Source of the DNA: a virus
Reading direction: 5' to 3' (one strand)
IMG/VR virus record: IMGVR_UViG_3300036828_000438
Span: 1-33,350 of that record
Length of the DNA stretch: 33,350 bases
Each line of letters opens with the position of its first letter. Positions within the stretch are counted from its first letter, which is position 1. Below the pieces are notes generated by a model. It worked only from the letters and a program-made list of their open reading frames with translations, did not search any database and was not told the DNA's origin. The translations under genes and the position numbers were made by a program. Shown here one piece after another: positions 8,768-33,350 of this stretch.

Positions 8768-9046
8768 CTACGGCTGGGCGTCCACCACCAGCGTCTCAAT
8801 CAGCTCCCCGGCCATGTCGTACCGGTGCAGCACGCGGCGCACGTCGTAGCGGGCCTTGCGCAGCCGCCGCATGCAATCCTTGCACTCCATCTCAATCAGG
8901 TTGTCCGGCTGCACGAAGGAGGGACGGCCGCCGGTCAGCCGCAGCAGGGCGAGCAGCTTGCCGGGATGGCAGCTGCCGTCCTGGCGGGAGTACTCGACGG
9001 GGCAGCGCAGCTCCACCACCTCGACGCCGTTGTACACCTCAGCCAT
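8768..9046 (-). CDS. Com-like zinc-finger protein
   Basis: 92 residues. ATG 9046 overlaps the end of the glycosyltransferase gene by 8 bp. It has paired metal-binding motifs: ELRCPVEYS... GSCHPGKLL near the N-terminus and IEMECKDCMRRL in the second half. That is the pattern of the small Com-like/zinc-ribbon proteins found in many phages, whose prototype (Mu Com) activates translation of the mom mRNA. Here no mom-like modification gene is visible, so I call only the fold. It is followed at once by WhiB. Confidence 0.7.
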   Translation of the reverse strand: MAEVYNGVEVVELRCPVEYSRQDGSCHPGKLLALLRLTGGRPSFVQPDNLIEMECKDCMRRLRKARYDVRRVLHRYDMAGELIETLVVDAQP

Positions 9047-10250
9047 GGCCGTGCCCGTAGCCGATGATGTCGCCGCCCCGGGCCGGGCGGCGGCAGGCCA
9101 GGGCCTTCTGGCTGACCTCCGGGCCGGGGCCGTCGATGGTCTCCAGGCGGCGGAACAGCGCCTCGATGACCACCTGCCAATCACACATCTTGGGGATGAT
9201 GTCAGCGGCCAGCTCGGCCTTGCGCCGGGCCTCGTCGCGGTGCGTCCAGATGTGCCAGATGACCTCGGCCAGGTGGTCCGGGTCGACCTGCGCGCTGTGC
9301 GCGGCCCACGGCTTGTCCTCAAAGGTGGGCACCAGCTCGTAGTCCAGCGGGTAGGCGTAGTCGCTGCGCAGCCAGTGCTCCGGGCCGCCGAAGTTGGTCA
9401 CCGCGCAGGTCCCGCCCGTGGTCATGAACTCCAGCGCGGGCAGCAGCTTGCCCTCGCCCATGGACGGGCCGAGCAGCACGTGCCCGGCCGCGTAGAAGTC
9501 GTCCAGTTCCTGCTTGTCCAGCGCGCTGGTGAACACCTTGATGCCCGACTTGGCGAACGGCTCATTCAGCTCGGGGAACAGGGTGCCTGGCGCGGAGGTG
9601 TGCAGCGCGAGCCTGGCCCCGTCGAACTCGCTGCCCTTGTCGAACTTGAGCCGCTGGAATGCCTGGATGGCGGTCCACGGCTGCTTCCGGCGGTTCAGCG
9701 CGCCGTGCATGATGAACTGGAACCGCTCCCCGGTCCAATCCCGGCCGGTGTGCTTCCACCGCCGCGAGTCGTACCCGCCCTGGAGCACCCCCTGGCGGAC
9801 CTTAGACGGCACGTACGGGCTGATGGCGTCCAGCGACACGTTGTCGTAGCCCAGCACCATGTCGAACCACCTGAGACGCTCTGGGAGCGTCGTGCGGCGC
9901 GGGCAGTGCGGCACCAGGCCGCTGACCGGCTTGCCGTTCTTGCCCGGCCCGCCGGCGAACTCCCACATGGTCCAGGCCACCGCGATCCGGCTCATGCCCC
10001 GGGCCTCCCGGGTGATGAACAGGTTGGTCGGGTCCCAGTGGTTGATGAGCAGGTCGAACGGGGGGTCCAGCGTCTTGGCGAACAGCGGCAGCAGGTCCTT
10101 CGGGATGGGCACGTCCACCCAGGTGGGCTGGGGGTAGACGTCGCAGCCCCACTGGCTCAGCGCCCGGAGCATGCCGAGCCCGTCCATGCCGTAGCCGCTG
10201 TACTCGGAGAAGGGACTCTTGACCAGAACTTTCAGTGCGTCTGATCCCAC
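9039..10250 (-). CDS. GT4-like (GT-B fold) glycosyltransferase
   Basis: 403 residues from GTG 10250, with GGGGAG five bases upstream. The N-terminal part has the Rossmann-like start LKVLVKSPFSEYSGYG with a Gly-rich loop. The second half has the sugar-nucleotide-binding features of family GT4: RFQFIMHGALNRRKQP, and GPSMGEGKLLPALEFMTTGG (about residues 258-277), which fits the E-x7-E region. It would transfer a sugar from a nucleotide donor to an unknown acceptor, such as a virion protein, phage DNA or the host surface. It sits directly after the tail terminator gene, where the major tail protein is usually found. A second, unrelated glycosyltransferase is at 14326-15090. Confidence 0.85.
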   Translation of the reverse strand: MGSDALKVLVKSPFSEYSGYGMDGLGMLRALSQWGCDVYPQPTWVDVPIPKDLLPLFAKTLDPPFDLLINHWDPTNLFITREARGMSRIAVAWTMWEFAGGPGKNGKPVSGLVPHCPRRTTLPERLRWFDMVLGYDNVSLDAISPYVPSKVRQGVLQGGYDSRRWKHTGRDWTGERFQFIMHGALNRRKQPWTAIQAFQRLKFDKGSEFDGARLALHTSAPGTLFPELNEPFAKSGIKVFTSALDKQELDDFYAAGHVLLGPSMGEGKLLPALEFMTTGGTCAVTNFGGPEHWLRSDYAYPLDYELVPTFEDKPWAAHSAQVDPDHLAEVIWHIWTHRDEARRKAELAADIIPKMCDWQVVIEALFRRLETIDGPGPEVSQKALACRRPARGGDIIGYGHGHG

Positions 10251-15820: not shown

Positions 15821-17011
15821 TCAGTCGATGGTACCGCCACCGCCGGCCCAGTAACCGGCAGGTGCCGTGCCGTACGCCTGGACGATGTTGGTTGCCACCA
15901 GGAACTGTTCCGGCCGGGTCACGATGGGAAGCAGGTGCCACTCCAGGAGATACTGCCTGGCACTCGGGTCCTTCTCCTTCCAGGTCTTCGCATACTTCCC
16001 GGTGAACCCAGAAGGCGCTTCATCATCAGCCGTGGGGCCGATGAGCATTTCCATGGGCCGCTGGTCGCTGTAGTTGCCCATGTAAATCTGGCCGTCCGGC
16101 ACGAAGAACGTCAGGAGACCGGCGTCATTCTCGTACACGTGCTCGACCGTGGTCCAGTTCATGCCCATGAAGCCGGACAGGATGCCGGACGAGAAGTACT
16201 CGTCCTTCATGCGGTCGCTGATCATGGTGGCCGGGATGTTGACGGTACTGCCCGCGCCGGCGTGCACCCAGGCTTCCATGAGGGCGGCCATGGTGACCGT
16301 GGTGGCGAAGCACTCCCGGGCCGGGACCCGGCCGTGGATTTGGATAATCCTCTTCCAGCTTCTCACGTCCTCGATTATCTGGAACGGGCTGGCGTAGGTC
16401 GGGGTCTGGCCGAAGGACAGGTTGGTGTTCGCCTGGCCCATGGTCTGCGGCGTGTTCGGGAGAGGCTGCGGGCTGGCTGCGGGGACCTGGGTGCCCATGT
16501 AGACCAGCGAGGTGTTGGACAGCCACGGCGCAGCCGGGACGACGAAGTGGGACGCCGGGAACTTGAAGTCCACGGTGGCCTGAATCTCCGCGTAGTTGTA
16601 GTTGATGCCGCCGCCCATGGCCTGCCAGATGGACCACTCCGCGAAGTTGTCGAACCGCTGGTTCAGGTCGTTCACCTCGCGCAGGACCGACTTCTCCGCG
16701 TTAACCCGGGCCAGCTCGCCGGGCGTGCGCAGCCAGTGCAGCGTGGTGGGCTCGAAGACCTTCTTCTCACGAAGGTAGATGAAGCTGGCCGACTCCTGGC
16801 TCCTGCCCAGGCGCGAGATGATGTGCGCCTCGGAGTTGGGCACGTTGGGCTTGGCGACCATCCTGGAGCCCTTGATTACGTCCCAGGTCGCGGACGGGAA
16901 CGGCCACGGCGTCTGGTCCAGGCGATTGAGCATCATGAGCGTGTCGGGCACCATGAACTTCTCGACCACCCCGCGCAGGACGACGGGCTCCAGCAGGCTG
17001 ATGTCTGGCAT
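15821..17011 (-). CDS. Major capsid protein (lambda E-like, HK97 fold)
   Basis: 396 residues from ATG 17011 with GGGAGT eight bases upstream. The pattern fits the 'phage major capsid protein E' type: a start with SLLEPVVLRGVVEKF, long stretches with WDVIKGSRMVAKPN and AHIISRLGR, a helix with EVNDLNQRFDNFAEWSIWQA, and C-terminal P-domain-like segments (MISDRMKDEYFSS, GQIYMGNYSDQRPMEMLIGP, LLEWHLLPIVTRPEQF). Gene order of protease, decoration and capsid supports it. It forms the icosahedral shell. A strong terminator follows, so it is the last gene of the capsid operon. Confidence 0.88.
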   Translation of the reverse strand: MPDISLLEPVVLRGVVEKFMVPDTLMMLNRLDQTPWPFPSATWDVIKGSRMVAKPNVPNSEAHIISRLGRSQESASFIYLREKKVFEPTTLHWLRTPGELARVNAEKSVLREVNDLNQRFDNFAEWSIWQAMGGGINYNYAEIQATVDFKFPASHFVVPAAPWLSNTSLVYMGTQVPAASPQPLPNTPQTMGQANTNLSFGQTPTYASPFQIIEDVRSWKRIIQIHGRVPARECFATTVTMAALMEAWVHAGAGSTVNIPATMISDRMKDEYFSSGILSGFMGMNWTTVEHVYENDAGLLTFFVPDGQIYMGNYSDQRPMEMLIGPTADDEAPSGFTGKYAKTWKEKDPSARQYLLEWHLLPIVTRPEQFLVATNIVQAYGTAPAGYWAGGGGTID

Positions 17012-17922: not shown

Positions 17923-18984
17923 TTACTTCTTGTCCTTGGAGAACATCTGGCTGTGCTGCGCAGTCAGCCGCATGATCTCCTCGTCCACGTTCTCCTGCTG
18001 CTTCTGCTCGCCGTCCGGGGGAGCCTGGCCGTGCTGGTCGTTCAGCCGGACGTAGGGCTCCTTCTCCGGGGACAGGAAGTCCTCGACGCCCCGGCCGAGC
18101 AGGATTTCCTCAATCGCCCGGTTGCGGCTCTTGGGCAGCAGCCGCCCGACGCTGATGTACCCGTCGACCTCGCGCTCGGCCTGCTTGCGGGTCAGCGTGG
18201 CCACCTGGTCGGTGAGCACCTCGTTCTTGCCGGCCAGCTCGACAATCGCGCCGACCACGTCGCCGGCCTCCAGCTGGCCGTCGCTGAGCTTGACGCCGGC
18301 CCCGGTGTCCTTCAGCGCGTCCATGATGGCGGAGGTGAGCTGGGCGGTGTCGGCCTTGGCGCTGGCCTGCTCGGTGAGCGCCTCCACGTCAATGCCGTGC
18401 TCGGCCTTGAGCTGCTCCAGCAGCTCTTCCTTGGTCATAGCCACCGTCTCCTGTCCGCCCAGCACGATGATGTCGTCCTCTGTCTCATCGGCGGTGGCCG
18501 CGATGACTTCCTGGTAGTCCTCAAGGCCGGTGATGTACGGGCGGTTAGTGACGCAGACGTGCAGCAGGGCCGGCCCGACGCGCTCTTGCGTGGCCGTGTC
18601 CTTGTAGTTCATGTGCAGGAACGCGCTGGACCCGAGGTAGGTCTTGCCGAACTTCTCCGCATCCTGGCGCGCGTCGATGACGGCGTAGACCTTCTTGCCG
18701 TCGCGCTCCACGTCCACGACCTCACCGAGGTTGCGGGACGGGTCCTCACTGTGCCGGTTCTGCGCGTCGGCCAGCGGGACCTGGACGATGTCGGCCACGC
18801 CCGAGTTGAAGTTGTGCTTGAGCCTGGCGTACCAGTTGTCGTCCAGGTTGAAGGTCTGGCCCTCGTAGCTGAGCTGGCCCAGGTTCAGGATGTGCTTGCG
18901 GAACAGCCGGCCCTGCCGGCTCCGCGTCAGCGGGACATAGCCCTCGGCGTCACGCGGCGAGGGGATGATGAGCAGGTCTCCCAT
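17923..18984 (-). CDS. Capsid maturation protease / scaffold (Mu I-like)
   Basis: 353 residues from ATG 18984. The N-terminal 150 residues follow the Mu protein I/head-maturation protease pattern: MGDLLIIPSPRDAEG, NLDDNWYARLKHNFNSG, KKVYAVIDARQDAEKFGKT, FLHMNYKDTA and finally HVCVTNRPYITGL. The last of these is the typical 'xxx-TN-xP' end of the protease domain. The C-terminal half is helical and charged with EELLEQLKAEHG and KNEVLTDQVATLTRKQ, as expected for a scaffold. The protein should help assemble the procapsid and then cleave itself and the capsid protein. No ribosome-binding site precedes the ATG, so translation probably couples to the 50-aa gene just upstream. Confidence 0.8.
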   Translation of the reverse strand: MGDLLIIPSPRDAEGYVPLTRSRQGRLFRKHILNLGQLSYEGQTFNLDDNWYARLKHNFNSGVADIVQVPLADAQNRHSEDPSRNLGEVVDVERDGKKVYAVIDARQDAEKFGKTYLGSSAFLHMNYKDTATQERVGPALLHVCVTNRPYITGLEDYQEVIAATADETEDDIIVLGGQETVAMTKEELLEQLKAEHGIDVEALTEQASAKADTAQLTSAIMDALKDTGAGVKLSDGQLEAGDVVGAIVELAGKNEVLTDQVATLTRKQAEREVDGYISVGRLLPKSRNRAIEEILLGRGVEDFLSPEKEPYVRLNDQHGQAPPDGEQKQQENVDEEIMRLTAQHSQMFSKDKK

Positions 18985-19608: not shown

Positions 19609-19997
19609 TTGTCCGGCTCCCCTCGTATCACGGTGTCTCCGCCGTGCGGCACGGCAGTAATGGAATCCTGGCGGTCCTTCTCCATGAGCCGGACCATCTC
19701 CGGTTGCAGGCTGCCCGACCAGACCATGGTCTGGTCGATGGTGTCGAACCGGACCCGGACGGCCCGGGGGGCTGACCGGAACTGCTCGTAGGACAGCACC
19801 TGGAGCGGGCCGAACACCTTGTGCGACCCGGAGTAGACCGGGAACCAGACCACCGGGTCGAGCCCGGCCATGCCGGTCACCACCACCCGGGGGACGTGGT
19901 AGTTGGCGTGGTTGCGCTCCTCGAAGTACGCGAGCAGGCCGTACGGGAACTCCCGGTCCAGCTTGGCCTGCCAGCGGGCCACCTGCTCGTCGGTCAC
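19605..19997 (-). CDS. Small phage protein coupled to the giant gene
   Basis: 130 residues from GTG 19997, which overlaps the giant gene stop as GTGA. An upstream in-frame ATG (20045) would lie inside the giant gene. The N-terminus has a helix (EQVARWQAKLDREF) and the middle is beta-rich (HVPRVVVTGMAGLDPVVWFP, VFGPLQVLSYEQF, AVRVRFDTIDQTMVW). The family is not recognised. Tight coupling to the giant gene suggests a chaperone or partner of that protein; this is inference. Confidence 0.65.
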   Translation of the reverse strand: MTDEQVARWQAKLDREFPYGLLAYFEERNHANYHVPRVVVTGMAGLDPVVWFPVYSGSHKVFGPLQVLSYEQFRSAPRAVRVRFDTIDQTMVWSGSLQPEMVRLMEKDRQDSITAVPHGGDTVIRGEPDK

Positions 19998-22900
19998 GGC
20001 TTCTCCCCCTGGTGGAACGGGCAGGTGCACCCAGGCGTCGTGCACACCGGGTCGTGGTCAAGCCCGTCACCGTCACCGTCACTCGTGGTGCTGGCAGGGA
20101 TAGCCAGCTTGGCGATGATGTCCTTCAGCTGCGCGTTGGTGAGGCCACCGGACTGCACCGGGGGGCTGTAGCTGAACGTGCCGCTGGCAGTGGTGTAACC
20201 CTGGCTGCCGCTGATGTCGGCGTACAGCTCAGGCTCGACCTGCCACTGGACGAGGGGGCCGCTGTACAGGTGCTTGGAGTGGATGGTGCCGGACGTGATG
20301 TTGGCCGTGCTCGTGGCGACCGGCACGTTGAGGGTGACGTACTCATTGCCGAAGGCGTCCTGGTGCTTCTCGGCGGTGAGCCCGGCCTGGGATTCGATGT
20401 CCATGGCCTGCTGGCCCTTCAGCGCGGCCTTCTCCGCTGCGGTGGCGTCGGCAGGCAGCTCGGCCACGCTCCAGTCGACCGGGGCGGCTGGCACGAACCA
20501 GGTCCCGGCCTGCTTCTCCAGCGCCTTGCGGGCCTTGTCCAGCGCCGTGCTCACGCCGTACTCGGTGACAATGCGGTCCTCGACCGGCAGGCCCCGGATT
20601 TCGGTGATGCCGAACCCCTTCAGGTCCTTGATGATCTTCTGCCGCTGGGTCTCGCTGTACGCCTTGAGCACCTCGATGTCGTCGAGCAGGCTGATGGCGT
20701 CCGGCACCATCATCTCGTTCCCGCCGCCGCTGTGCTGGGTGTGGTGGCCGTAGTCCCAGTGGGAATACTCCTTGCGGGATGTCACCTCACCGAACTTGTC
20801 GGAGCCGAAGCTGTAGCTGCCGAGCTGGGCGGTGACCCGGGGGCTGACCCAGACGTGGTAGCTGCTGCCGGACAGGTTCTGCCGCAGGAAGACGAACCCG
20901 GAACTGCCGTGCTGCTGGTCACTGTCCCAGCTCATGCCGGGCTTGTGGGTACCCAGCGCGCGGAGCCGGGCCTCGGATGAGTACAGGCCGCCTGACCGGG
21001 CGACCAGCACCGCATCCCGCTCCGGGCCGCCGTCCGCGTTGAAGCTGTTGATGAGGAAAGCCTTCTTGGCCACCTGCTCCGGGGTCACGTCGAAGCGGTA
21101 CCAGATGGGCTTGCCGCCCGGCACGGTCTTGGCGTGCATGCTGTAGTGGTTGAAGTGCGGCATGTACCCCTGGCTGTCCGCCCACGCCTTGACCTTCTCC
21201 GGGCTGGCCATGTGCGCCATGGCCTCGCGCCAGATTTTGGCTTCGTCCTCGGCGGGCAGGCCCAGGGCGGCCAGCTTGTCGATCATTCCGCGCACCGGGC
21301 CGTGAATCTGGGACAGAGGGATGCCCGAGCCCTTGGCCAGCGCCCCCCACATCTTCTTCTGCGCGGGATTCTGCCGGTCGGCCCGGTCACCCATGTCGGC
21401 GGCGGCCAGCCGCCAGTACAGGTTCTCCATGGCCCCCTGGGTGGCTTCCTTCATGGGCAGCCCGGCCTCCTGGAGGAAGCCCCGGACATTCTCCAGCGAG
21501 CTGGAGCCCTGGTCGTGCACGGCCAGGAACCGGACCCGGCCCTGCTGCGCCTTGGGGCTGTTGGCCGGGTCGCTGATCTCGATGACTTCCCCGGTCGGCA
21601 GCTTGACCTCGTACACGCTGCCGGCATAGTGCGTGAGCAGCCCGGCCTTGAGCACCAGCTCGCCGGTCTTGGGGTCCAGCTGCCAGCTGTCAGCGGTGAG
21701 GTTAGCCGAATTGGTGCCCAGCTGCCGGGTGGCCGTCTTGGGGCCGGCGACCTGGATGCCGCCGGCTGCCTCTGACACCTTCCCCTTCAGCTCGAAGGCG
21801 GGGAAGTCGCCTACCTCCGGTATGGTGTCCTGCACCTTGGCCAGGTTCACCTTCTGAATCTGATCCAGGTAGAACTTGGCCATCTCCACGACCGCGTGCG
21901 GGTCGCCGTACTTATCCAGCGCGGCCAGGTACTTGGCGCTGGACGCCCCCGCCTCCAGCGCCGCCTCGGACTCGTGCAGCCGCTGCTCCAGCTTGTCCTT
22001 GACCTCGTTCATGGCCAGCAGGGCCGCATCACTAATCGGGCCGTACAGGACGAACTTCTTGCCGTAGGGGTTCTCCGGGGTGAGCGAGTGCGTGCTGACC
22101 GCCTCGGCGGCGGTGAGGATGGCCTGGTGGAACTCGTACTCGTCCTTGGGCGCGAGCTTGGCGGCCTCCCCGCTGTGGCTCTTAACCCAGGCCAGGAGGT
22201 CAGACAGGGACTTGCCGCGCAGCTCGAACTCGCCCCGGGTAGCGGGCTTGCCACTGGGGTTGATTTCCTGCCAGACGTGCACGGCACCCCGGGCCAGGCC
22301 GGGCTCGTCGAAGAAGAAAGCAACCCCGGCGCTCTTGGCACTGGCGACGTGCTCCATGCCGTCGACCTCAGAGAACCCGGAGTGCGCACCGCCTTCCAGC
22401 GCGGTGACGGGCACCTCGGGCGGGGTCCAGCCAAGCTTGGCGTAGGCGCTGTCCCACAGCGCGGTGATGTCATTGACCAGGCTGTTCTTGCGGGCAACCA
22501 GCGCGGCGACCCCGGCCGTGCTGAGCCCGGTGCCGCCGAGCAGCTGGGAGAACCGGGCGTCGGGCAGCTTGCACATCCGCTGCGCGACCCGCACCGCGCC
22601 GATGTACGCCTCGTCGGCGGATGCCTTGGACACCCCGCCGCTGGCCATGGAGTCGAACAGCAGCGAGACAGGCTGCTTGAACTGCTCGTCCAGATGATCC
22701 AGGCTCGCGCCCTGCCACTTCAGGCCGGTGAACGCGCCGGGCTTGCCGGCGCTGACCACGGACCCGTCGTGCATGACCAGGTAGCTGCCGGCGGTGGAGG
22801 ACGGGTTGCCGAGCAGGTAGTCCAGCACGTGCTCGCGGGCGATGTCCGCGAGCTGCTTGTCGGTCAGGCTGGTCAGGCCGCCCGCGACGTGAGCCAGGCT

Positions 22901-25900
22901 GCCCTTCGGCACCACCTCGTCGGTGAGGATGCCGGGGGTGCCGTCCTTCTCCAGCTTGGCCCACTCGGCCTTGGGCGTCTTGAACCCAAAGGCCCTGGCC
23001 AGCGAGTTGACCGCGATGCGCGAGGCCATCTCGGGCTTGGTGCCGCTGAACCACAGCTTGGTGTTGCCGTTCTGGTCCCGCACGTAGCCGGGCTTGCCGT
23101 CGACCAGCTCCCACTTGGGCCGCAGCTCTTCTTCCTTGGCCTTGGCCACCACGTCGTCCAGGTATGCCTGAACGGCGGGCTTGGCGTAGTAGCCGCTCTG
23201 GTGCAGCCATTCGGCCGGGGTAAGGCTGGAGCCCTGGTCGCTGATGAGCTGCTGGGCGAACGGGGCGAGCGCGGCCTCGTTGTGGTTCACGAAGTCCTGG
23301 GTGGCCTCGTTAGTCCAGGACTTGGCCGGGGTGGCGTCCTCCAGGAAGACGCTGTAGCTCTTGGCCGGGGTGAGCGTGTCGTGCCAGACGGGCGGCGCGG
23401 TGAGCGGCTGCTCCTTGCCCTGGTACCGCTCGGCGGCGGTGCGGGACAGCTCGTCGACGGCTTCCTGATCCCCGTTGCGGTGCAGCTTGACCAGCAGCCG
23501 GCGCTCCTTGGCGCTCAGGTACGCGGCGTGCTGGACATTGACCTTGATGAGGTAGTTGTCTACCTCGTCCTTCAGCGGCGTGATGCCCGGGTCGGACCAG
23601 TTGCCCTCGATGGTCTGGCTGGCCGGAATCTGCCCGCTGTCCCACGGTGCCCAGGTCATGTGGTGCGTGACGGTGTTCTCCGGTGCGCCGGGGTGGGCCG
23701 GGCTGACCTTCCCGCCCTTGGCGTCCAGGTTGAACACGGTCTGCATGTCGCCCTTTTTCCAGGCGTGCAGCCAGGCGAGCCGCTCGGGCTTGGTCAGGCC
23801 GGACTTGTGGGTGCCGACCACCTTGCCGCCGCCGTACTGCTCGCTGACGGCCTCGATGACCGAGGCCAGCTGCGGGGAGCCCATGGCGGCCAGCACGTCG
23901 TTCGCCAGTGACCCGTCGAACGGCTTGGCGTACCCCTGGCCGGCGAAGCTGAAGATGTCCTTGGGGCCGTAGATGCCGGGCGGCAGGCCCTTGAGGAACT
24001 TGACCTCAGCCGGGGCCTCGGCCTTGGCCCCGGCCTGCTGCTGCGGGATGCTCAGCAGCTCGTTCATGAGGCCCATCAGCGCGTGGTACTGGTCCTCGCC
24101 GTTGCCGGACAGGCCCTTGTCCTCCACGAAGGCCAGGACCCGGTTCATGGCCTCGTCCTGCGGGACGCCGATGCCGGCCCAGAACACCGGAGCCCACTTG
24201 TACCCGCCGGTCTGCTGGAGCTTGTTGCGGAGGCCCTCGACCTCCATGTAGGTCATGCCCTGCCCGCCGAACAGGTGGTACACGGACGGCATGGTGCCCG
24301 GCTCGACCACGGTATTGCCGTACTTGTCCAGCACCATGCCGCCCTCCATGGAGGACGTGGTGCCGAACAGCGTGCCGTGCTCCCCGGTCGACGGGTCCTG
24401 CCACAGCGCCGAGCCGTCCTCGTGGACGGTGATGTGCTCGCTGCCGTTCATGCCATGGGCGTCGGACCAGAGCTTGTAGCTGCCGGGCGCGGCGGTGGTG
24501 GCGTACTTGTTGGCGAAGAACGCCTTGGGGACCAGCGGCTTCTCGGTCTCCCAGTACTCGGTGTTCTTCTGAAGCTGAGACGCGGCGAAGGAGGGGGTCT
24601 TGGCGGCGGTGTTGCCCGAGGTGTCGTGCCAGATGAATGCGGCGGTGCCGCCGGGCTTGCCGTACTTGTGCTTGTGGTACTTGCCGTAGTTCTTGGCTTC
24701 CTTGACCTCCAGGAACGCCTTGCCCTTGGGGCTGTAGTAGAACCCGAACTTGTAGACCTTGCCGTCGACGGTGACCGCGCCGGGGGTGAGCGCCTGCTTG
24801 ACGTGGTCGATGATCTCGGAGACCGGGATGTCCTCCGTCAGCCCCTCCGGGTACTGCGGGCTGGGCTTGAAGTGGTGCTGGACCTTGAGGCTCTCGGGAT
24901 TGAAGTGCCAGTATTCGCTGGCGTTGTGCGGGGTGTAGCCGGCGCTTCCCCAGCCGCCGCCCCCGGCGTACTGGAAGATGTACTGGGCCTGGGAGGCGTA
25001 GTGGCTCTTGCCGCTCAGCTTCTCCGCGACCTGGCCCTTCCAGCTCTTGTCCGCGTCGGCCTTGGAGATGGCGGCGGTATGCGCCCACGTCTTGACTTCC
25101 GCGATTGCCTTGGCCTCGGCAATCTCCTGCTCGGTGGGCGCGGGAATCTCGTGGATGGTGCCCGCCGCGAGCTGCTTATCCCCGCCGTAGTAGCTCTTGG
25201 ACAGGTTGTTGCCGTAGCTGCTCTCCAGCCATGACCCGTCCGGCTGCTTCACGTAGTAGGGCGTGTACCCGTACTCGGGCTTCGGCCCGCTGTAGAACTT
25301 GGACCCGGCCGGGACCATGCCCAGGATTTTGTTATCCAGGATGGCGGGGATTTCGGTGACGACGTCGGCCGGCTTCTCCTTGCCGTACTCCACCAGAGCC
25401 CCGCCGGCGGCCAGCGCGTCGAGCTTCTGCGGCTCGCTGGTGCCCTGATCCCCCTGCTGGCCCTGGACGAAGATGCCCCAGGACCCGTCGCCGTACTTGA
25501 CGTAGTAGGCCGCCGCGTCGTCCTGAGTCTTGGCCGTGGCGGCGTGCCAGTACACCGTGGCGTCGGCGGGAATACTGCCGACCCCCTTGCCCTTGATGGT
25601 GAGCGGCTTGGTGGCCGGCTCCGCCTTGGGCGCAAGGTGCGGCTCCACGTCCGGCTCGGGCGCGTGCTCGGGTGCCCCGCTGGTCTCCGCCAGCAGCTTG
25701 GCGCTGGCCGACAGCGGCTTGAGCAGCCCGTTACCGATCCAGTTGTCCAGCGCCGCGTTCGTGCCCAGGATGTGGACGCCGCCGCCGGCGTACTGGAGGG
25801 ACCAGGTGCCGTCCTCGTGCTTGATGTAGGTGCCGTAGCCCGGCTCCTGGGTGTCCTGCCAGGTGGAATCCCCCGGCTCGCCTATGTAGATGTCCTTGCC

Positions 25901-28879
25901 GATACCGGGCAGCCAGACCTTCTCGGGCTTGGGTGGCTCGGCGGGCTTGGGCGCAGCCTTCTCGATCTTCTCCGGTACCAGCTGGCCGCCTGTGACCCAC
26001 TGGTCGTACTTCCCGGCAGACGGCTCCCCGTAGGTGCCGAGGCTGCCGTACTTCTGCCAAGTACCGTCCTTGAGCTTGACGTACTTGAAGTTCGCGGACT
26101 CCGGGTAGGCCCCGGTCCCGTGGTAAATGACCGCGCTCTTGGGAACCTGGGCGACCGTCTTGCCCTTGACCATTACGTCCTGCATGGCCTCGGGCTCAGC
26201 CTTGGCCTCGGGCTCAGGCGCAGGCTTGGGCGGCTCAGGCGCAGGCTTGGGCGGCTCAGGCGCAGGCTTGGGCTCTTCCTTCTTGAGCAGCTGGGCCAGC
26301 TTGAGCACCATGCCGCTGGAGAACGCGGTCTCGCTGCCGTCCTTGCCGACCAGGATGACCTGGTGGTCCGGCGTAATCCGGTAGTACAGCTCCCCGGGCG
26401 CTCCCCAGGCCCCGGTCAGACCCGGTGTCTTGGAGAACTTCCAGCCGCCGCCCTCCTTGGCCAGGATGTACCGGGTGGCGTTTAGCTTGGCCGACCCCCA
26501 CAACGCGGACGCCAGCGCGTTGTCCACGTCCCCGGCCACCCCGGGAACGTCCTTGGACGTGGCCAGCAGGATTAGCTGGTTGATGTCCTTCCAGTCCGGG
26601 GCAGCGGCCTTCCAGTCGTCTGGGAACATTTCCGCTGCCGGGGGTGGCGCAGGCGGGACCTTGACCTCGGGCTCGGGCAGCGGCTCGGGCTTCGGGGCCT
26701 CAGCCTCGGGCTTGGGCCAGTTGATCTTTACTGGCTCAACGACGTTGACCTTGAGCTTCGGGGGCGGCTTGGCCTCCGCCGGGTACGGCTTGACTTCCTC
26801 CTTGGGCGGGGCAACCGGGGGCTTCTCAGGCTCGGGCACGGCCTCCGGGGGCGGCTTAATCCAGGACTTGGCGTCAGCCAGCGTCATGTCCGCCGCGTAG
26901 TCCTTCTGCTCGCCCCCGATGGTCATGGTGACCTTGTGCTCGGGCGAGGCGGTGAACCAGCTGTAGCCCTTGGCGGGCGGGCTGAAGTCCACTTCCCAGG
27001 TGCCGGGAGTGGCGTGGCTGGCGAAAGCGTAGGTGTTGACCTTGTTGTGGTGCGCGTAGAGCAGCGCGGCGGCGACCGCCCCGTGCGGGTTGTTCGCCCA
27101 CCCGGGCTTGAGCGCGCTGACCTTCTGCCCGGCCAGCGCGTGCAGCTCCGCTGACTGGTCGTGACCCGTCTCCTGGTCAGCCTTGGCCAGCTCGCCGGCG
27201 TGCTCCTTCAGTGACTCCAGCATGAGCAGCTTGGTGGACCAGGATTTGGCCGTGTCCGGGTGGGCCGTCTTGTACTTCTTGGCCTCGCCCATGTAGTCGG
27301 CGGTGGCAAGCGGGTTGCCCGTCTTCTTCATGGCCTGGCTGAAGCTCTGCTTGCCGCCCATGGTCTGCTGGAGCCAGTCGGCGGCCTCCTGGAGCTGTTC
27401 CTTGGTGGCGGTCTTGCCGCCCCAGCTGTAGGTGTGCGGCGTCAGGTCCTGGGCGTGCTCGGCGGCGGCCTCGGCCTTGGCCGTGGTCTCCTCGGTGACG
27501 TGCTGCTCGGCCTCGGTGGCGCTCAGCTCGTCCAGCTTGCCCGCCAGGTGGTGCAGTATGGCCAGCTTGACCTGGCCGACGTGCTTGGCCTTGGTACCTT
27601 TCGGTACTAGTAGCCCCGGGTACTTGGCCAGCTCGGCCTTGGAGACGGCCATGTAATCCATGTCCGCCAGCGGGTTCCCGGCGTTCTTCAGCGGCCCCTT
27701 GACGTTGGTGGACAGCTTGGAGTTCAGCACGCTGATGGCGTGGTGGATTTCCTCCTTGGTCACCGGGATGCCGCCGATGTCCACCTTGACCGCCTCCGCG
27801 CCGGTCGACTCGGCGGGAGCCGGCTTGGCAGCCACCTTGACCATGGGCGTCACCTTGGCAGGCTCCGGTGGCGCGGGCGGCGGCTCAGGCTTGGGGGTGG
27901 TGGGTGCGACGTGCGACGGCGCGGGCTCGTGCGTCTCGTGGTCTTCCTTGACCAGCTGGCCCTTGGCAGCCCACTTCTCCAGGTTGGCGGCGGTAGGCGG
28001 GTTGATCTTCTCGACCTTGCCCGTCTTGCCGACGTAGTGCCAGTCCCCGGTATCCGGGTCCTTGGCGAACTTGCCGGTCAGCTTGTCCTCGGGGGCGGTG
28101 GACGACTTGTGCACCTGCCAGTGGTGCGGCACCCAGGCAGCATGCTTGCCGCCGATGGTGACGGCCTTCTTCGGCTCGGGCTCGGGGAGCTTCTTGTAGT
28201 GCGCGGCCAGGTTGCCGATGGCCATGGCCGACGTGGGCACCGGCTTGCCCGGCATGTCGTCGTCACCTGGGTGCAGCACGACGTGCTCGGGGTTCGGCCC
28301 CTTCTTCACCACGATCTTGGGCGCGTTCTTGACCTGCGCCTCGTCGCCGGTGTCCACGTCCTTGGGGACGTGCACCTCCAGGCCGTTGTGCACCGCGTAG
28401 GTGTGGTTCCCGGCCTGCACGTAGTGGTGAGTACCCTGCTCGACGGCCTGCTTGGCGTCCCCCGGCTTCCACTGGTTGGCCTTCCACAGCTCCGGGGTAA
28501 TGGAGTGCACCATGTGCCCCGGCTGCCCGGCGACCCAGTGCTCCTTGCCGTGCGGGATGATGAAGTCCCCGATGTTGCCGTGGAACTTCTCCTCGCCCAG
28601 GGCGCTGGCGATTTTCTTGGGGGCGTGCCCTCCCTTGACAGTCTTGCCTGCGCCGGCCGGGCCAGCGGCACCGGCTGCCGCCTCGGAGATGGTCTGGCCG
28701 GGCAGCCCGGCACCGGGGGCTCCCGCGCCCGGCCCGGCATCCCCGCCTCCCGCATCCGCCAGGGCGACCAGCCCGGAAGCGGCCAGCACGATGTTCTTCT
28801 TGTCCTTGGCCAGGTGCGCGTAGTGCGCCTTGAGCTTCTTGTGCTCAGGCGTGTCATCCGGCCACGACGGGAGTGCCAT
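19994..28879 (-). CDS. Giant multidomain virion protein, 2961 aa: repeats, kinase-like and ART-like domains
   Basis: ATG 28879 with an excellent GGGAGGT site. Domains: N-terminal Ala/Gly-rich helical part; helical modules around 366-440 and 483-545, each with a NPLA-x2-DYM motif; proline-rich linkers at about 317-350, 674-752, 866-893, 967-989 and 1064-1097; five related modules of about 65 residues (about 244-310, 904-965, 994-1057, 1095-1165, 1184-1245) sharing Y-x-x-YVK-x2-DGSW and ending G-x-LV. Residues about 1930-2110 look like the HipA/PI-kinase-like domain seen in phage MuF-region proteins, but NHDSH is NPSST at 2025-2029 and IDKG is AGKP at 2044-2047. Residues about 2560-2790 look like a phage ADP-ribosyltransferase: R2628 before GGLYSSE, then GNEMMVPDAISLLDD with E2722. 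The end has DGDGDGLDHD plus a Cys/His cluster. No signal peptide. It follows MuF, so packaging in the capsid and ejection into the host is the leading inference. Confidence 0.85.
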   Translation of the reverse strand: MALPSWPDDTPEHKKLKAHYAHLAKDKKNIVLAASGLVALADAGGGDAGPGAGAPGAGLPGQTISEAAAGAAGPAGAGKTVKGGHAPKKIASALGEEKFHGNIGDFIIPHGKEHWVAGQPGHMVHSITPELWKANQWKPGDAKQAVEQGTHHYVQAGNHTYAVHNGLEVHVPKDVDTGDEAQVKNAPKIVVKKGPNPEHVVLHPGDDDMPGKPVPTSAMAIGNLAAHYKKLPEPEPKKAVTIGGKHAAWVPHHWQVHKSSTAPEDKLTGKFAKDPDTGDWHYVGKTGKVEKINPPTAANLEKWAAKGQLVKEDHETHEPAPSHVAPTTPKPEPPPAPPEPAKVTPMVKVAAKPAPAESTGAEAVKVDIGGIPVTKEEIHHAISVLNSKLSTNVKGPLKNAGNPLADMDYMAVSKAELAKYPGLLVPKGTKAKHVGQVKLAILHHLAGKLDELSATEAEQHVTEETTAKAEAAAEHAQDLTPHTYSWGGKTATKEQLQEAADWLQQTMGGKQSFSQAMKKTGNPLATADYMGEAKKYKTAHPDTAKSWSTKLLMLESLKEHAGELAKADQETGHDQSAELHALAGQKVSALKPGWANNPHGAVAAALLYAHHNKVNTYAFASHATPGTWEVDFSPPAKGYSWFTASPEHKVTMTIGGEQKDYAADMTLADAKSWIKPPPEAVPEPEKPPVAPPKEEVKPYPAEAKPPPKLKVNVVEPVKINWPKPEAEAPKPEPLPEPEVKVPPAPPPAAEMFPDDWKAAAPDWKDINQLILLATSKDVPGVAGDVDNALASALWGSAKLNATRYILAKEGGGWKFSKTPGLTGAWGAPGELYYRITPDHQVILVGKDGSETAFSSGMVLKLAQLLKKEEPKPAPEPPKPAPEPPKPAPEPEAKAEPEAMQDVMVKGKTVAQVPKSAVIYHGTGAYPESANFKYVKLKDGTWQKYGSLGTYGEPSAGKYDQWVTGGQLVPEKIEKAAPKPAEPPKPEKVWLPGIGKDIYIGEPGDSTWQDTQEPGYGTYIKHEDGTWSLQYAGGGVHILGTNAALDNWIGNGLLKPLSASAKLLAETSGAPEHAPEPDVEPHLAPKAEPATKPLTIKGKGVGSIPADATVYWHAATAKTQDDAAAYYVKYGDGSWGIFVQGQQGDQGTSEPQKLDALAAGGALVEYGKEKPADVVTEIPAILDNKILGMVPAGSKFYSGPKPEYGYTPYYVKQPDGSWLESSYGNNLSKSYYGGDKQLAAGTIHEIPAPTEQEIAEAKAIAEVKTWAHTAAISKADADKSWKGQVAEKLSGKSHYASQAQYIFQYAGGGGWGSAGYTPHNASEYWHFNPESLKVQHHFKPSPQYPEGLTEDIPVSEIIDHVKQALTPGAVTVDGKVYKFGFYYSPKGKAFLEVKEAKNYGKYHKHKYGKPGGTAAFIWHDTSGNTAAKTPSFAASQLQKNTEYWETEKPLVPKAFFANKYATTAAPGSYKLWSDAHGMNGSEHITVHEDGSALWQDPSTGEHGTLFGTTSSMEGGMVLDKYGNTVVEPGTMPSVYHLFGGQGMTYMEVEGLRNKLQQTGGYKWAPVFWAGIGVPQDEAMNRVLAFVEDKGLSGNGEDQYHALMGLMNELLSIPQQQAGAKAEAPAEVKFLKGLPPGIYGPKDIFSFAGQGYAKPFDGSLANDVLAAMGSPQLASVIEAVSEQYGGGKVVGTHKSGLTKPERLAWLHAWKKGDMQTVFNLDAKGGKVSPAHPGAPENTVTHHMTWAPWDSGQIPASQTIEGNWSDPGITPLKDEVDNYLIKVNVQHAAYLSAKERRLLVKLHRNGDQEAVDELSRTAAERYQGKEQPLTAPPVWHDTLTPAKSYSVFLEDATPAKSWTNEATQDFVNHNEAALAPFAQQLISDQGSSLTPAEWLHQSGYYAKPAVQAYLDDVVAKAKEEELRPKWELVDGKPGYVRDQNGNTKLWFSGTKPEMASRIAVNSLARAFGFKTPKAEWAKLEKDGTPGILTDEVVPKGSLAHVAGGLTSLTDKQLADIAREHVLDYLLGNPSSTAGSYLVMHDGSVVSAGKPGAFTGLKWQGASLDHLDEQFKQPVSLLFDSMASGGVSKASADEAYIGAVRVAQRMCKLPDARFSQLLGGTGLSTAGVAALVARKNSLVNDITALWDSAYAKLGWTPPEVPVTALEGGAHSGFSEVDGMEHVASAKSAGVAFFFDEPGLARGAVHVWQEINPSGKPATRGEFELRGKSLSDLLAWVKSHSGEAAKLAPKDEYEFHQAILTAAEAVSTHSLTPENPYGKKFVLYGPISDAALLAMNEVKDKLEQRLHESEAALEAGASSAKYLAALDKYGDPHAVVEMAKFYLDQIQKVNLAKVQDTIPEVGDFPAFELKGKVSEAAGGIQVAGPKTATRQLGTNSANLTADSWQLDPKTGELVLKAGLLTHYAGSVYEVKLPTGEVIEISDPANSPKAQQGRVRFLAVHDQGSSSLENVRGFLQEAGLPMKEATQGAMENLYWRLAAADMGDRADRQNPAQKKMWGALAKGSGIPLSQIHGPVRGMIDKLAALGLPAEDEAKIWREAMAHMASPEKVKAWADSQGYMPHFNHYSMHAKTVPGGKPIWYRFDVTPEQVAKKAFLINSFNADGGPERDAVLVARSGGLYSSEARLRALGTHKPGMSWDSDQQHGSSGFVFLRQNLSGSSYHVWVSPRVTAQLGSYSFGSDKFGEVTSRKEYSHWDYGHHTQHSGGGNEMMVPDAISLLDDIEVLKAYSETQRQKIIKDLKGFGITEIRGLPVEDRIVTEYGVSTALDKARKALEKQAGTWFVPAAPVDWSVAELPADATAAEKAALKGQQAMDIESQAGLTAEKHQDAFGNEYVTLNVPVATSTANITSGTIHSKHLYSGPLVQWQVEPELYADISGSQGYTTASGTFSYSPPVQSGGLTNAQLKDIIAKLAIPASTTSDGDGDGLDHDPVCTTPGCTCPFHQGEKP
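26211..26273 (-). repeat. Three perfect tandem 21-bp repeats in the giant gene
   Basis: Three exact copies of a 21-bp unit (26211-26231, 26232-26252, 26253-26273) encode PKPAPEP repeats at about residues 869-890. Perfect DNA identity points to recent slippage or expansion, so linker length may vary between relatives. Confidence 0.9.
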
Positions 28880-29374: not shown

Positions 29375-29754
29375 CGGGTTCCCCATGCCTTCCGGTGCCT
29401 CCAGTCCCTGCGGCACTCCTCGGCCGGGCAGTCCGGGCCATTGCTGCACACCGCGTAGGCACCCCCGGCCCCCAGGCGGCGTACCTCGTTGAGCGCGCAC
29501 TGCTCCGCCGCCACGTCCGTGTCGTGCTCGTGATGGCAGTGCCACGAATCAGGGCGGGCAACGCGGCTGTTCTCGGGATACGTCGCCACCACGGCCCCGT
29601 AGTACGAACCCCGCCACCCGCCGCCTGCGGACATGACCTGGCGGCCGAACTCGCGCGCCTGGGCCTGGACCTCGAACAGCAGGCGGTAGTGCTCCCGCGC
29701 CTCCTTGCGCTCAAGCTCTGCCAGCTCACGTCTCAGGTCATCCAGCCTCGTCAT
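29371..29754 (-). CDS. Coiled-coil protein with Cys/His cluster
   Basis: 127 residues; ATG 29754 overlaps the MuF gene stop as ATGA. The first 35 residues are heptad-like (DDLRRELAELERKEAREHYR), a probable coiled coil. The C-terminal half is rich in Cys and His (WHCHHEHD, AEQCALNE, AVCSNGPDCPAEECRRDW) and may bind zinc. Function unknown; the place behind MuF suggests a virion or head-assembly role. Confidence 0.65.
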   Translation of the reverse strand: MTRLDDLRRELAELERKEAREHYRLLFEVQAQAREFGRQVMSAGGGWRGSYYGAVVATYPENSRVARPDSWHCHHEHDTDVAAEQCALNEVRRLGAGGAYAVCSNGPDCPAEECRRDWRHRKAWGTR

Positions 29755-30740
29755 AGCCCTGCCAGCCTCCTGAGCGCCATGCCCAGCTCGTGCACGGCGG
29801 CCCGGAGGAACGCCATGAGGGACCGGTACCTCGCCTCGGGCAGGGCGCGGATGTCAGCGGCAGCCAGGAACTCACCGGCAGCTTGGGGAGCGGGGGACCG
29901 TCCGCCGGGAGCAGCCTGGCCGCCGTCTGATGATACGGGCACGAGCACGATCCTGCACCGGCACCGGGGGTGCAGCGGCGGGCCGGGCAGCATGCCGTGG
30001 TACAGCCTGGGCGGGTGCGTCCAGATGATGGCAGTGCCGATGCGCTGGTGGTACCGGTCCTCCCCGGCCGGGGTGGCGACGTGCCGGGTGGCCGTCTCAT
30101 GCTGGACGGCGACCGGGCCGGGGAGCGGGAACTGGGCATGCAGGGGGACCGTAGTGCCATCCAGGAACCGGCACCACATGCAGGTCTTGCCGTCCCTCCT
30201 GGCCACCCACCGCTTGCGGACCTGCTCCCCGGCAGCCTCCCGCTCGGCCCCGGCCTCCAGGACTGCTGCGGTCTGGGCGGCAGCCCTGGCGACCTGGAGT
30301 GACAGCCCGTGGCTAAGGAGCCGGTCTCTCGCAAACCCCACGATAGCGCGGCGGACGGCGGCGGCCCGCCGGATGGCGGCCTCCATGTGCGGGACCGTGC
30401 CGGGCGGTGTGACACCCACAATGAAATGAGCGTGCGGGACCGAGGCGTGCGCGTGCCGGATCGCGTGCCGCAGGTGCGGCAGGGAGTATTGGGCCTCGAT
30501 GTCGTCGAGCAGGTGCTGGTAGTACGCAGTCTGAGCGGCGTCCGCCGAGTTCCATTCGTCTTCCAGCTCAGCGACAGCCAGGTTCCGGGCGTCTTCCAGC
30601 GCCTGCGCGAGCAGGGCCTCGATGTCCGGCCTGGCCAGCAGCGCGTCGGCACTGCCGTAGGGGTTGTTCCGCACGACCAGGGCGATGTAATCCGCGAGCT
30701 GGGCGAAGACGGCGTGCAGCGAGACAGTGAGGGTAGGCAC
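29751..30740 (-). CDS. MuF-like minor capsid protein
   Basis: 329 residues from GTG 30740 (weak ribosome-binding site). The C-terminal part has the MuF signature: TCMWCRFLDGTTVPLHAQF at about 190-208 and PLHPRCRCRIVLVPV at about 254-268, in which the paired CxxC and HPRCRC motifs form the conserved core. The first 180 residues are helical. A Pro/Gly/Ala-rich tail of about 60 residues follows. MuF proteins bind the portal or inner head and are sometimes fused to toxins or enzymes. Here the enzymatic domains are instead in separate neighbouring genes (zeta-like upstream, giant downstream). Confidence 0.85.
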   Translation of the reverse strand: MPTLTVSLHAVFAQLADYIALVVRNNPYGSADALLARPDIEALLAQALEDARNLAVAELEDEWNSADAAQTAYYQHLLDDIEAQYSLPHLRHAIRHAHASVPHAHFIVGVTPPGTVPHMEAAIRRAAAVRRAIVGFARDRLLSHGLSLQVARAAAQTAAVLEAGAEREAAGEQVRKRWVARRDGKTCMWCRFLDGTTVPLHAQFPLPGPVAVQHETATRHVATPAGEDRYHQRIGTAIIWTHPPRLYHGMLPGPPLHPRCRCRIVLVPVSSDGGQAAPGGRSPAPQAAGEFLAAADIRALPEARYRSLMAFLRAAVHELGMALRRLAGL

Positions 30741-31084: not shown

Positions 31085-31263
31085 CGGGCCAGGCCCTCGC
31101 GCACCATGTAGGCCACCGCCTGCGCGGCTGACTCCCAGTGCCGCTGGATGACGGCCTCCTGCTGATCCCACCGGGGCAGGTGCTCGGCCCGGATGCTCAG
31201 CCACCCGGCGTCCTCCGCGTAGGCGTCGTAGGCCACCTGGCCCAGCGACCGCAAGTCAACCAT
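31081..31263 (-). CDS. Small phage protein, unknown function
   Basis: 60 residues from ATG 31263, overlapping the zeta-like gene by 8 bp. The pattern 'LAxxAYxxYAExxGW... LPxWDxx... IxxxWExAAxAV' (here LGQVAYDAYAEDAGWLSIR and HWESAAQAVAYM) is one I recall from many short phage and actinobacterial proteins without known function. It starts a GTGA-coupled chain with the next gene. Confidence 0.7.
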   Translation of the reverse strand: MVDLRSLGQVAYDAYAEDAGWLSIRAEHLPRWDQQEAVIQRHWESAAQAVAYMVREGLAR

Positions 31264-32530
31264 GCGCCGTCCTCCTTCTCAGCTCCTCGACGCTGGGGAT
31301 GGCACCACCACTGTCTGACGCCGAACCGCTGGATTCCGTCCGGCGCGGTGCTCCCCCGGAATTGTCCCAGTGCTCCCAGGAGTCCAGGGACGGCTTGGCC
31401 ATGTCGAAGGCGTCGTTGTTCTGGCTGGACCCTCCCGAGGTCTCAGCGGCAGCCAGAGCGCCGCTCATGGGCAGCTTCGCGCCCGCGCCCTTGCCCTTGC
31501 GGTACTTCTCATGGCCGGCCCGGTGCGCCCGGTGCGCGCTGTCCACAGCATTGTCCACCGGGGTGTGGACAAAGACGCCGTGCACGCTGTAGCCGTTATC
31601 CCGCAGCCGCTGGGCGTGCTGCTCGACGTGATGCGCGCTGGCCATGGGCATGTGGACGGCCAGGTTCTTGCCGCGCTTCATGGCCAGGTCCGCGATGAGA
31701 TGCGCGATGTGCACGGCCTCCTCGTGCACCAGGGGACTGCCCTCGGCCGGGGATAGCCCCCTGATCTCGGGTATAAGGCCGAGGGCGGCCATGGCCTCCT
31801 TGACCAGCTCGGGGTCCGCGTGCACGTAGTCCTCTGGCTTGAGGCTCCCGGCCACAGACGTACGCCCTGGGTGCCGGAAGCCGCCCACCAGCATGCCCTG
31901 GCGGCTGGACGGCACGTCGGTGGCGCTGTCCAGCGCCTCATGAGCCAGGTCAGTGTGCACCGAGGCCCGCTCCGGGGACCAGATGCGGCCCTTGCCGTCC
32001 AGGGTGTGCTCCTGGCTGGTGGCCCGGCCGGATTTCAGCGCCCTGGCCACCGCATCCTCGGCGTACCGCTGGTGGCTGGCGTGCTCGTCCGGGGTCCACG
32101 CCTTGTAGGTGCCGGGCAGCGGAATCCCCTGCGCGGCCTGCTGGCTGGCGTGCTGCTCCACCTCCTTGGACGCGCTCTGGTACTCCCCTACCTTCTGCTC
32201 CCAATCCCCGTACTTGGCCAGCTGGTCCTTAGCGTCCTGGAGCTGGAGAGATTTAGCATCCGGCCCGGCCGGGGGCTCATACGGCCGGGGCGTGCTGCGG
32301 TAGGCGATGCGGCTGATCGTGTCGTGCGGGTGCTCGCGGACCAGGTGATGGCCCAGGTGCGGGTGGACCGCCCCGGCTCCTTCCCTGGCTGGCGGCGGGG
32401 TGGCGGTCGGCGGCGGCAGCGGCGGGTTGTCGGTGCGGGGCGGGGCGGCCAGCTCCAGCACGCGGGCCGCCGCGATGTCCTCCACCAGCGACCTGGCCAG
32501 CGCGGTCAGCGCCTCCTCGGCTTCGCTCAA
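31256..32530 (-). CDS. Zeta-toxin-like P-loop protein with degenerate Walker A
   Basis: 424 residues from TTG 32530 with GGAGC six to eight bases upstream. Residues 1-200 are helical, Ala/Gln/Glu-rich. From about 207 the zeta-toxin/UDP-GlcNAc-kinase pattern can be followed: GMLVGGFRHPGRTSVAG with the loop GGFRHPGRT at 216-224, YVHADPELVKEAMAALG with D239 in the place of the catalytic Asp, LVHEEAVHIAHLIADLAMKRG (from 267; shown in part), VHMPMASAHHVEQHAQ and the Arg motif AHRAHRAGHE. The usual Walker Lys is Arg223, so activity may be reduced, lost or changed. A disordered tail follows. It lies between portal and MuF. Zeta toxins phosphorylate UDP-GlcNAc and block wall synthesis; a virion-packaged effector is plausible, and no antitoxin is visible. 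Confidence 0.72.
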   Translation of the reverse strand: MSEAEEALTALARSLVEDIAAARVLELAAPPRTDNPPLPPPTATPPPAREGAGAVHPHLGHHLVREHPHDTISRIAYRSTPRPYEPPAGPDAKSLQLQDAKDQLAKYGDWEQKVGEYQSASKEVEQHASQQAAQGIPLPGTYKAWTPDEHASHQRYAEDAVARALKSGRATSQEHTLDGKGRIWSPERASVHTDLAHEALDSATDVPSSRQGMLVGGFRHPGRTSVAGSLKPEDYVHADPELVKEAMAALGLIPEIRGLSPAEGSPLVHEEAVHIAHLIADLAMKRGKNLAVHMPMASAHHVEQHAQRLRDNGYSVHGVFVHTPVDNAVDSAHRAHRAGHEKYRKGKGAGAKLPMSGALAAAETSGGSSQNNDAFDMAKPSLDSWEHWDNSGGAPRRTESSGSASDSGGAIPSVEELRRRTAHG

Positions 32531-32560: not shown

Positions 32561-33350
32561 CTAGCTCCCCTGGCTTGCCGCGCCAGCGGGTACCGCAGGC
32601 TTGGGACGCGGGGGCATTACGGCATTGCCCGCGTTGGTCCCTGCGGTCTGGCCGGCCTGCGGGGGCGGGCCGCCCGGCGGCGGAGCACCACCAGGACCGC
32701 CAGCACCAGGTAGACCCTGGGCCTGGTTAGCCATTTGCTGCTGGGCCTGGGCCTGCATGAGCTTCTGCTGCTTCTCCCGCTCCTTCTTGATCTTGTCGTA
32801 GTCGATGTCACTGAAGCCCAGCTCCTCGGCCATGTGCTGCTCCAGGTCGAGCATGAAGTCCGGCGTGACGTTGGCGTTCTGCCCGGCCACGGCCAGCTTG
32901 TCGAACGTGTCCTGGATGGCGGCCTTCTGCTCGGCGGTGAGCGCGCCCCACTGGAAGTGCGGGTACTTCTCGGTGCCGAAGTTCCAATCCACGAAGCGCG
33001 GGAAGATGTGATTGTCGATGACCTCGGCCATCTCTTCCAGGATGCCCTCCAGCATGAGGAAGAACGTCGTATCCGATTGCTTGCCGAAGTCCACCAGCGT
33101 GCTGTCGCCCTGGCTCTGGCCCTGGCTGTCGTCGAACCACTGGGCCAGCACGCTCTTCGACATCTGGCTGTTGTGGTGGTTGATGAGCCCGAGGAAGTCA
33201 AAGCGCGAGGAAGCCTCGTTCAGCGTCTGCACCGTCCAGTCCGCGCTCGGCACGGCGATGTACTGCGCCAGCCCGAGCTGGCTCAGCGCCTTGACGAAGT
33301 TGTCCTTGTCCCGGGCCGGCGCATTAGGCACCATGGTACCGACCCGGAGG
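32561..33350 (-). CDS. Portal protein, C-terminal part (cut by window edge)
   Basis: The reading frame is open to the right end, so the first visible ATG (33334) is unlikely to be the true start; about 262 codons are seen. The pattern fits the DUF935/Mu gp29-type portal: a segment with KDNFVKALSQLG, WTVQTLNEASSRFDFLGLIN, HHNSQMSKSVLAQWF and a late EEMAEVIDNHIFPRFVDWNF. The C-terminal tail is helical (KIKKEREKQQKLMQAQAQ) and then Pro/Gly-rich. The portal forms the ring for DNA entry and exit. It is followed by the zeta-like and MuF genes. Confidence 0.75.
   Translation of the reverse strand, partial: LRVGTMVPNAPARDKDNFVKALSQLGLAQYIAVPSADWTVQTLNEASSRFDFLGLINHHNSQMSKSVLAQWFDDSQGQSQGDSTLVDFGKQSDTTFFLMLEGILEEMAEVIDNHIFPRFVDWNFGTEKYPHFQWGALTAEQKAAIQDTFDKLAVAGQNANVTPDFMLDLEQHMAEELGFSDIDYDKIKKEREKQQKLMQAQAQQQMANQAQGLPGAGGPGGAPPPGGPPPQAGQTAGTNAGNAVMPPRPKPAVPAGAASQGS

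Follow-up and report, generated by a model that had tools for sequence, protein, structure and literature searches.

What does the C-terminal region of a giant phage protein do, and is it an ADP-ribosyltransferase (ART)? This question is raised by a viral record of 33,350 bases, the whole of which was analysed and is called the window here, encoding a protein of 2961 aa among its head genes. A preliminary description of the locus had proposed an ART-like domain near the end of this protein, possibly carried inside the capsid, with R2628, an SSE/STS element and E2722 meeting in one active site. The landmarks on which that proposal was built (the ORF, R2628 in VARSGG, GGLYSSE, VWVSPRVTAQL, GNEMMVPDAISLLDD, ITEIRGLPVEDRIV and E2722) are all found where they were described. 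Below we ask whether the region belongs to a conserved family, which fold and active site it has, and what role its gene neighbourhood suggests.

The giant protein is encoded in a head-gene cassette

The giant gene is a single ORF at positions 19994–28879 on the minus strand, so that residue k corresponds to window positions 28880-3k to 28882-3k. The frame is coding, as indicated by a third-position G+C of 0.90–0.96 in all six 500-codon blocks and by a Shine–Dalgarno-like GGGAGGTGGC upstream of the ATG. All the head genes located here lie on the same strand. The cassette opens with the portal protein gene (32561–33349, cut by the window end; phrog_113, 1e-15), a gene for a zeta-toxin-like kinase of 424 aa (31256–32530; PF06414, 1.1e-6, over the cut-off) and a MuF-like head morphogenesis gene of 329 aa (29751–30740; phrog_241, 8.4e-11; Phage_Mu_F, 3.7e-5, below the Pfam cut-off). 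A 206-aa gene and the giant gene follow and, downstream, the genes for the head maturation protease (17923–18984; phrog_328, 6e-8), a decoration protein and the major capsid protein (15821–17011; phrog_29, 2.8e-23).

The order giant–protease–decoration–capsid is common to the window and three related loci (L012, L026 and L072), and in 13 of 20 relatives scanned a MuF domain lies within the same protein as the ART domain. The giant is thus a multidomain protein encoded in a head-gene cassette, the arrangement expected of a polyvalent or MuF-type virion effector. On the basis of this gene position, and of the MuF domains in the same protein of relatives, the giant would be carried inside the capsid, as the preliminary description had supposed. 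No macrodomain antitoxin was found among the neighbouring ORFs scanned in this record, which is a fragment (20 ORFs by PHROG, 16 by Pfam).

Along the giant protein, the L012 relative is 61% identical over residues 766–2909, and blastp against the ORFs of relatives revealed that residues 2002–2265 and 2560–2773 recur jointly in many of them. The N-terminal part (window 24000–28879, minus strand) has linkers rich in proline, glutamate and lysine; visual inspection also picks out an ~80-aa module with DGTW/DGSW-like segments that is repeated, and a 35-nt direct-repeat pair falls on this region. Farther downstream in the record, the minus strand carries an Lsr2-like gene (7514–8026) and a gene for a glycosyltransferase (9039–10250; phrog_2170, 1.5e-19). 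The record also encodes a PF06737 transglycosylase domain which, together with the Lsr2-like gene, points to an actinobacterium as the putative host.

A family of homologous C-terminal domains

On its own, the window domain gave nothing at a meaningful score in Pfam, PHROGs, PDB sequences (phmmer and hmmsearch) or phage records. tblastn of the window domain and of its L026 counterpart against 50,697 phage records gave nothing useful, and a related-locus search with the single window protein returned three stretches and no relatives. The family was obtained with a degenerate DNA pattern for the motif GMSxxxDxxxGxxx[FY]VFxR, which corresponds to residues 2648–2666 (20882–20938, minus strand). 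This pattern matched the window once, versus 0.00 matches expected in shuffled sequence, and it matched 26 viral contigs, all of which encode a homologous domain at the C-terminus of a protein that is usually large; one of them, L002, has a frameshift after the motif. The segment is therefore beyond chance and belongs to a real homologous family.

Genome contigs yielded 11 matches to the same pattern, of which 10 were true homologs; the other, in L028, is a chance match and was discarded. A second pattern, placed around the glutamate, matched five loci including one new one (L072), and tblastn with the sequence of a relative led to the head morphogenesis protein of Pseudanabaena phage Pan1. 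Among 23 family members, 8 are matched by phrog_6577, a group of unknown function. Divergent relatives with a DarT-like H segment are present in three genome contigs of Deltaproteobacteria/Myxococcales (L029, L032 and L037); these have a long insertion ahead of the NE motif, and the ORFs of the first two are 680 and 689 aa long.

The domain has a DarT-like ART fold

DarT (PF14487) is the thymidine/guanosine ADP-ribosyltransferase of the DarTG system, a DNA-modifying toxin with which bacteria act against phages. An AlphaFold2 model of residues 2563–2792, built from 23 sequences, reached a pLDDT of 85.2 and a pTM of 0.85. In a Foldseek search of the PDB, the top nine matches were all ARTs, namely seven DarT chains and two SopF chains; the best had an E value of 7.3e-3 and a probability of 0.99, and none fell under 0.001. 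Structural comparison by VIA-align gave Z scores of 10.1 (E. coli DarT1, 3.6 Å over 155 residues), 9.5 and 8.0 for DarT entries, 6.6 for tRNA 2′-phosphotransferase and 3.5–3.9 for pertussis S1-type chains. Sequence identity in the structural alignments to DarT was about 8–15%.

A profile comparison, independent of the model, was consistent with it. With hhalign, 27 domain sequences were aligned to a profile of 18 DarT sequences gathered from genomes with a probability of 74.2 over 153 columns, which placed E2722 on the DarT catalytic glutamate. Controls stayed close to zero: 0.1 for reversed DarT, 0.0–0.2 for six shuffled DarT profiles, 0.5 for a phage kinase profile and 0.9 for KptA. When divergent rows were added, the DarT probability fell to 62.0 and 54.8; the two myxobacterial relatives by themselves scored 6.2 against DarT. 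The window domain has no match to the DarT Pfam model (PF14487), which a single member of the 23 reaches, at an E value of 0.019.

Together, the model, the fold search and the profile match support an ART fold of the DarT-like branch for residues 2594–2772 (20564–21100, minus strand). In this respect the preliminary description is upheld, and the non-ART fold that would have spoken against it was not seen; its assignment of the domain to the R-S-E type does not stand, for the reasons given with the active site below.

A kinase-like domain precedes apparently exchangeable ART modules

Upstream of the ART domain, residues 1920–2160 (22400–23122, minus strand) have a HipA/CtkA-like kinase fold. 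The model of residues 1900–2300, built from 17 sequences, had a pLDDT of 77.7 overall and mostly 81–93 in its first 250 residues, and VIA-align gave Z scores of 12.8 to CtkA, 12.4 to the N-terminal part of LepB and about 10 to HipA. Comparison of residues showed that the motifs FKP, NHDxH and GIDKG are kept in relatives, whereas the window reads LWF, GNPSSTAG and SAGKPG; the HipA-like ATP-binding and catalytic residues are absent in both the window and L012. Because these motifs have been lost in the two proteins, the domain is a predicted pseudokinase in this phage.

The kinase-domain profile matched three mycobacteriophage proteins, prophiFVLQ01-1 gp56 (1.5e-62), Phrappuccino gp195 (2.6e-53) and Onyinye gp16 (6.8e-45). 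The first and the last of these (loci L001 and L074) end in PF03496 ARTs, which are of the R-S-E class, and the DarT-like ART profile did not match either of them. Two different ART classes are thus found behind one kinase-like domain. That the kinase-like domain is shared while the ART class differs suggests that ART modules may be exchanged behind it, as in polymorphic toxins.

The predicted active site keeps its glutamate and varies at strand 1

Conservation was counted in a 31-row alignment of the ART domain. E2722 (20714–20716, minus strand) lies at the start of a late strand of the model (160–164), where ARTs have their catalytic glutamate (or Asp or Gln). It is E in 29 rows, and the two others (L029 and L032) are misaligned by an insertion and carry NE further on. 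The proposal that E2722 is a catalytic-type glutamate is borne out by this conservation and by its position on the DarT glutamate, and we regard it as the predicted catalytic residue. D2654, G2658, R2666, D2694 and G2697 are invariant over the 31 rows; the first three belong to the search pattern, and they hold as well in L071, which came to light independently of that pattern. The SSE position is conserved as an S-T motif (S in 23 rows, T in 25), which retains the SSE/STS element of the preliminary description without the triad that it was to form with R2628, and the far C-terminal segment is conserved too.

The site departs from the ART pattern in strand 1 (model residues 47–50), where a His or Arg for NAD+ is expected and the window protein has N2611 (21047–21049, minus strand). 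By analogy with H-type ARTs this position would contact NAD, and it is His in 26 of the 31 rows; the others are the window and L012 (N), L003 (A), L016 (S) and L026 (G). In the tree all five fall in one seven-row clade with a support of 100/100, within which L021 and L072 retain His, so that at least two changes are needed at this position.

Catalysis by the window copy is doubtful because the strand-1 His is Asn here and, with the kinase also dead, there is an appreciable chance of its being a pseudo-enzyme. In the fuller form of this explanation, the domain of this phage and of its close relatives would be a degenerate ART that keeps the fold and the glutamate but no longer uses NAD+, having a binding or structural role in a head protein beside the pseudokinase. 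The grouping of every non-His row in one clade and the loss of the kinase site in the window and L012 speak for it. However, E2722, D2654, R2666, D2694 and G2697 are still invariant in the same rows, two members of the clade keep His, and the same column is, by eye, not always His among the gathered DarT rows either. The ART could well be unaffected by what happened to the kinase residues, and few parts of the protein are better conserved between the window and L012 than the ART segment (69.6% identity), whose crude dN/dS of 0.62 is hard to read because codon bias is strong. We give this explanation a sizeable minority share of our confidence.

A second alternative concerns the substrate. Arg51 of DarT2 serves in recognition of the base, thymidine (PMC11281641); in our alignment it falls on Q2655, a column that is mostly Met in the family. 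Since this position is not conserved, the window domain is predicted to be DarT-like in fold yet not a DarT. This lack of conservation would also fit an ART-fold enzyme acting on NAD+ itself or on a small molecule rather than on a macromolecule, and NADases are described among ART folds (PMC9503650). The closest folds nevertheless modify macromolecules, and we consider an NADase-like enzyme unlikely.

Two other ART classes fit less well, and ORF28 and p0068-like ARTs are described as further families (PMC9503650). The N4-like/Tox-ART-HYD2 ARTs have a His-Tyr-Asp site with the Asp in strand 5 (PMC5512222), whereas 29 of 31 rows here have Glu at the aligned position. An R-S-E enzyme of the T4 Alt/VIP2 type (PF03496) built on R2628, SSE and E2722 has in its favour the order of these residues along the chain and the presence of PF03496 ARTs in the phage head proteins prophiFVLQ01-1 gp56 and Onyinye gp16, but is highly improbable: R2628 (20996–20998, minus strand), rejected here as the catalytic arginine, is Arg in 3 of 31 rows (the window, L012 and L072) and lies in a model helix (57–67, residues 2619–2629), strand 1 bears N2611 in place of the Arg of this class, DarT heads the fold list with pertussis S1-type chains far below, the E/Q-x-E motif is absent in most rows (the window reads G2720-N-E, and S, G or N prevail in column 2720), and the window domain has no PF03496 match, although in one such search control genomes gave none either.

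Proposed role in the virus head

These results allow us to propose a role for the giant protein. Our preferred reading, to which we assign a probability of roughly 0.6, is that the DarT-like ART domain is the C-terminal module of a multidomain, virion-packaged head effector of the polyvalent type. Being encoded among head genes and ending in a DarT-like ART fold, the giant is probably a cargo enzyme, or a former enzyme, carried in the virus head. We suggest that it would be built into the head during assembly and enter the host together with the DNA. Inside the host, the ART domain of the family would bind NAD+ and, through the conserved glutamate (E2722 here), transfer ADP-ribose to a macromolecule of the host, either protein or nucleic acid. 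The ART would be an exchangeable module linked to a HipA/CtkA-like kinase domain that, in this phage, is now a putative pseudokinase.

A more speculative extension is that phages took up a DarT-like ART as a weapon, carried in the head, with which the nucleic acid of the host is marked upon entry, as one of several modules exchangeable behind the HipA-like kinase, and that the branch including this phage is turning both enzymes to non-canonical or regulatory use; we hold this as a conjecture with rather poor odds.

With this analysis, a conserved C-terminal domain of phage head proteins, to which Pfam and PHROGs assign no function (phrog_6577), acquires a fold and a conserved catalytic residue. 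The analysis also ties these proteins to DarT, which in its bacterial forms works against phages, and makes the target of the family, including action on nucleic acid, directly testable.

Comparison with known systems

DarT is the closest known relative in fold (Z up to 10.1), and the family shares with it the order of motifs, a GMS-like loop, the aligned catalytic glutamate and, in most members, the strand-1 His. It differs in lacking a conserved Arg51 and, in the window copy, the strand-1 His. DarT is also a small toxin with a macrodomain antitoxin, whereas the domain described here is part of a giant head protein. HipA/CtkA-like kinases share the fold of residues 1920–2160, but their ATP-site and catalytic residues are missing from the window and L012. 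T4 Alt, in turn, is not known as a giant head-gene product carrying a kinase-like domain. It shares the concept of an ART that is delivered from the head, being packaged and injected (PMC5512222, PMC9503650), but has an R-S-E active site (PMC5512222).

Closer in architecture are phage MuF–ART and minor capsid–ART fusions such as prophiFVLQ01-1 gp56 and Onyinye gp16 (PMC9503650), which have the same head-gene context, a C-terminal ART and the same kinase-like domain upstream, but whose own ART belongs to the R-S-E class (PF03496). The Pseudanabaena phage Pan1 protein (UXO93730.1) has a homologous C-terminal DarT-like ART and an N-terminal MuF domain; it differs in being 927 aa long, in lacking a full kinase-like domain and in its altered GMS motif, and it is annotated only as a head morphogenesis protein. 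PMC9503650 describes ARTs that are packaged in heads and joined to MuF; polyvalent proteins in which kinase and ART domains occur are covered by that paper and by PMC5512222. We found no earlier description of a phage head protein with a DarT-like ART in the literature searched, although supplements may list the family under another name. Head-packaged ARTs as such are already known, and the new element here is that one of the DarT-like type is joined to a HipA/CtkA-like kinase domain.
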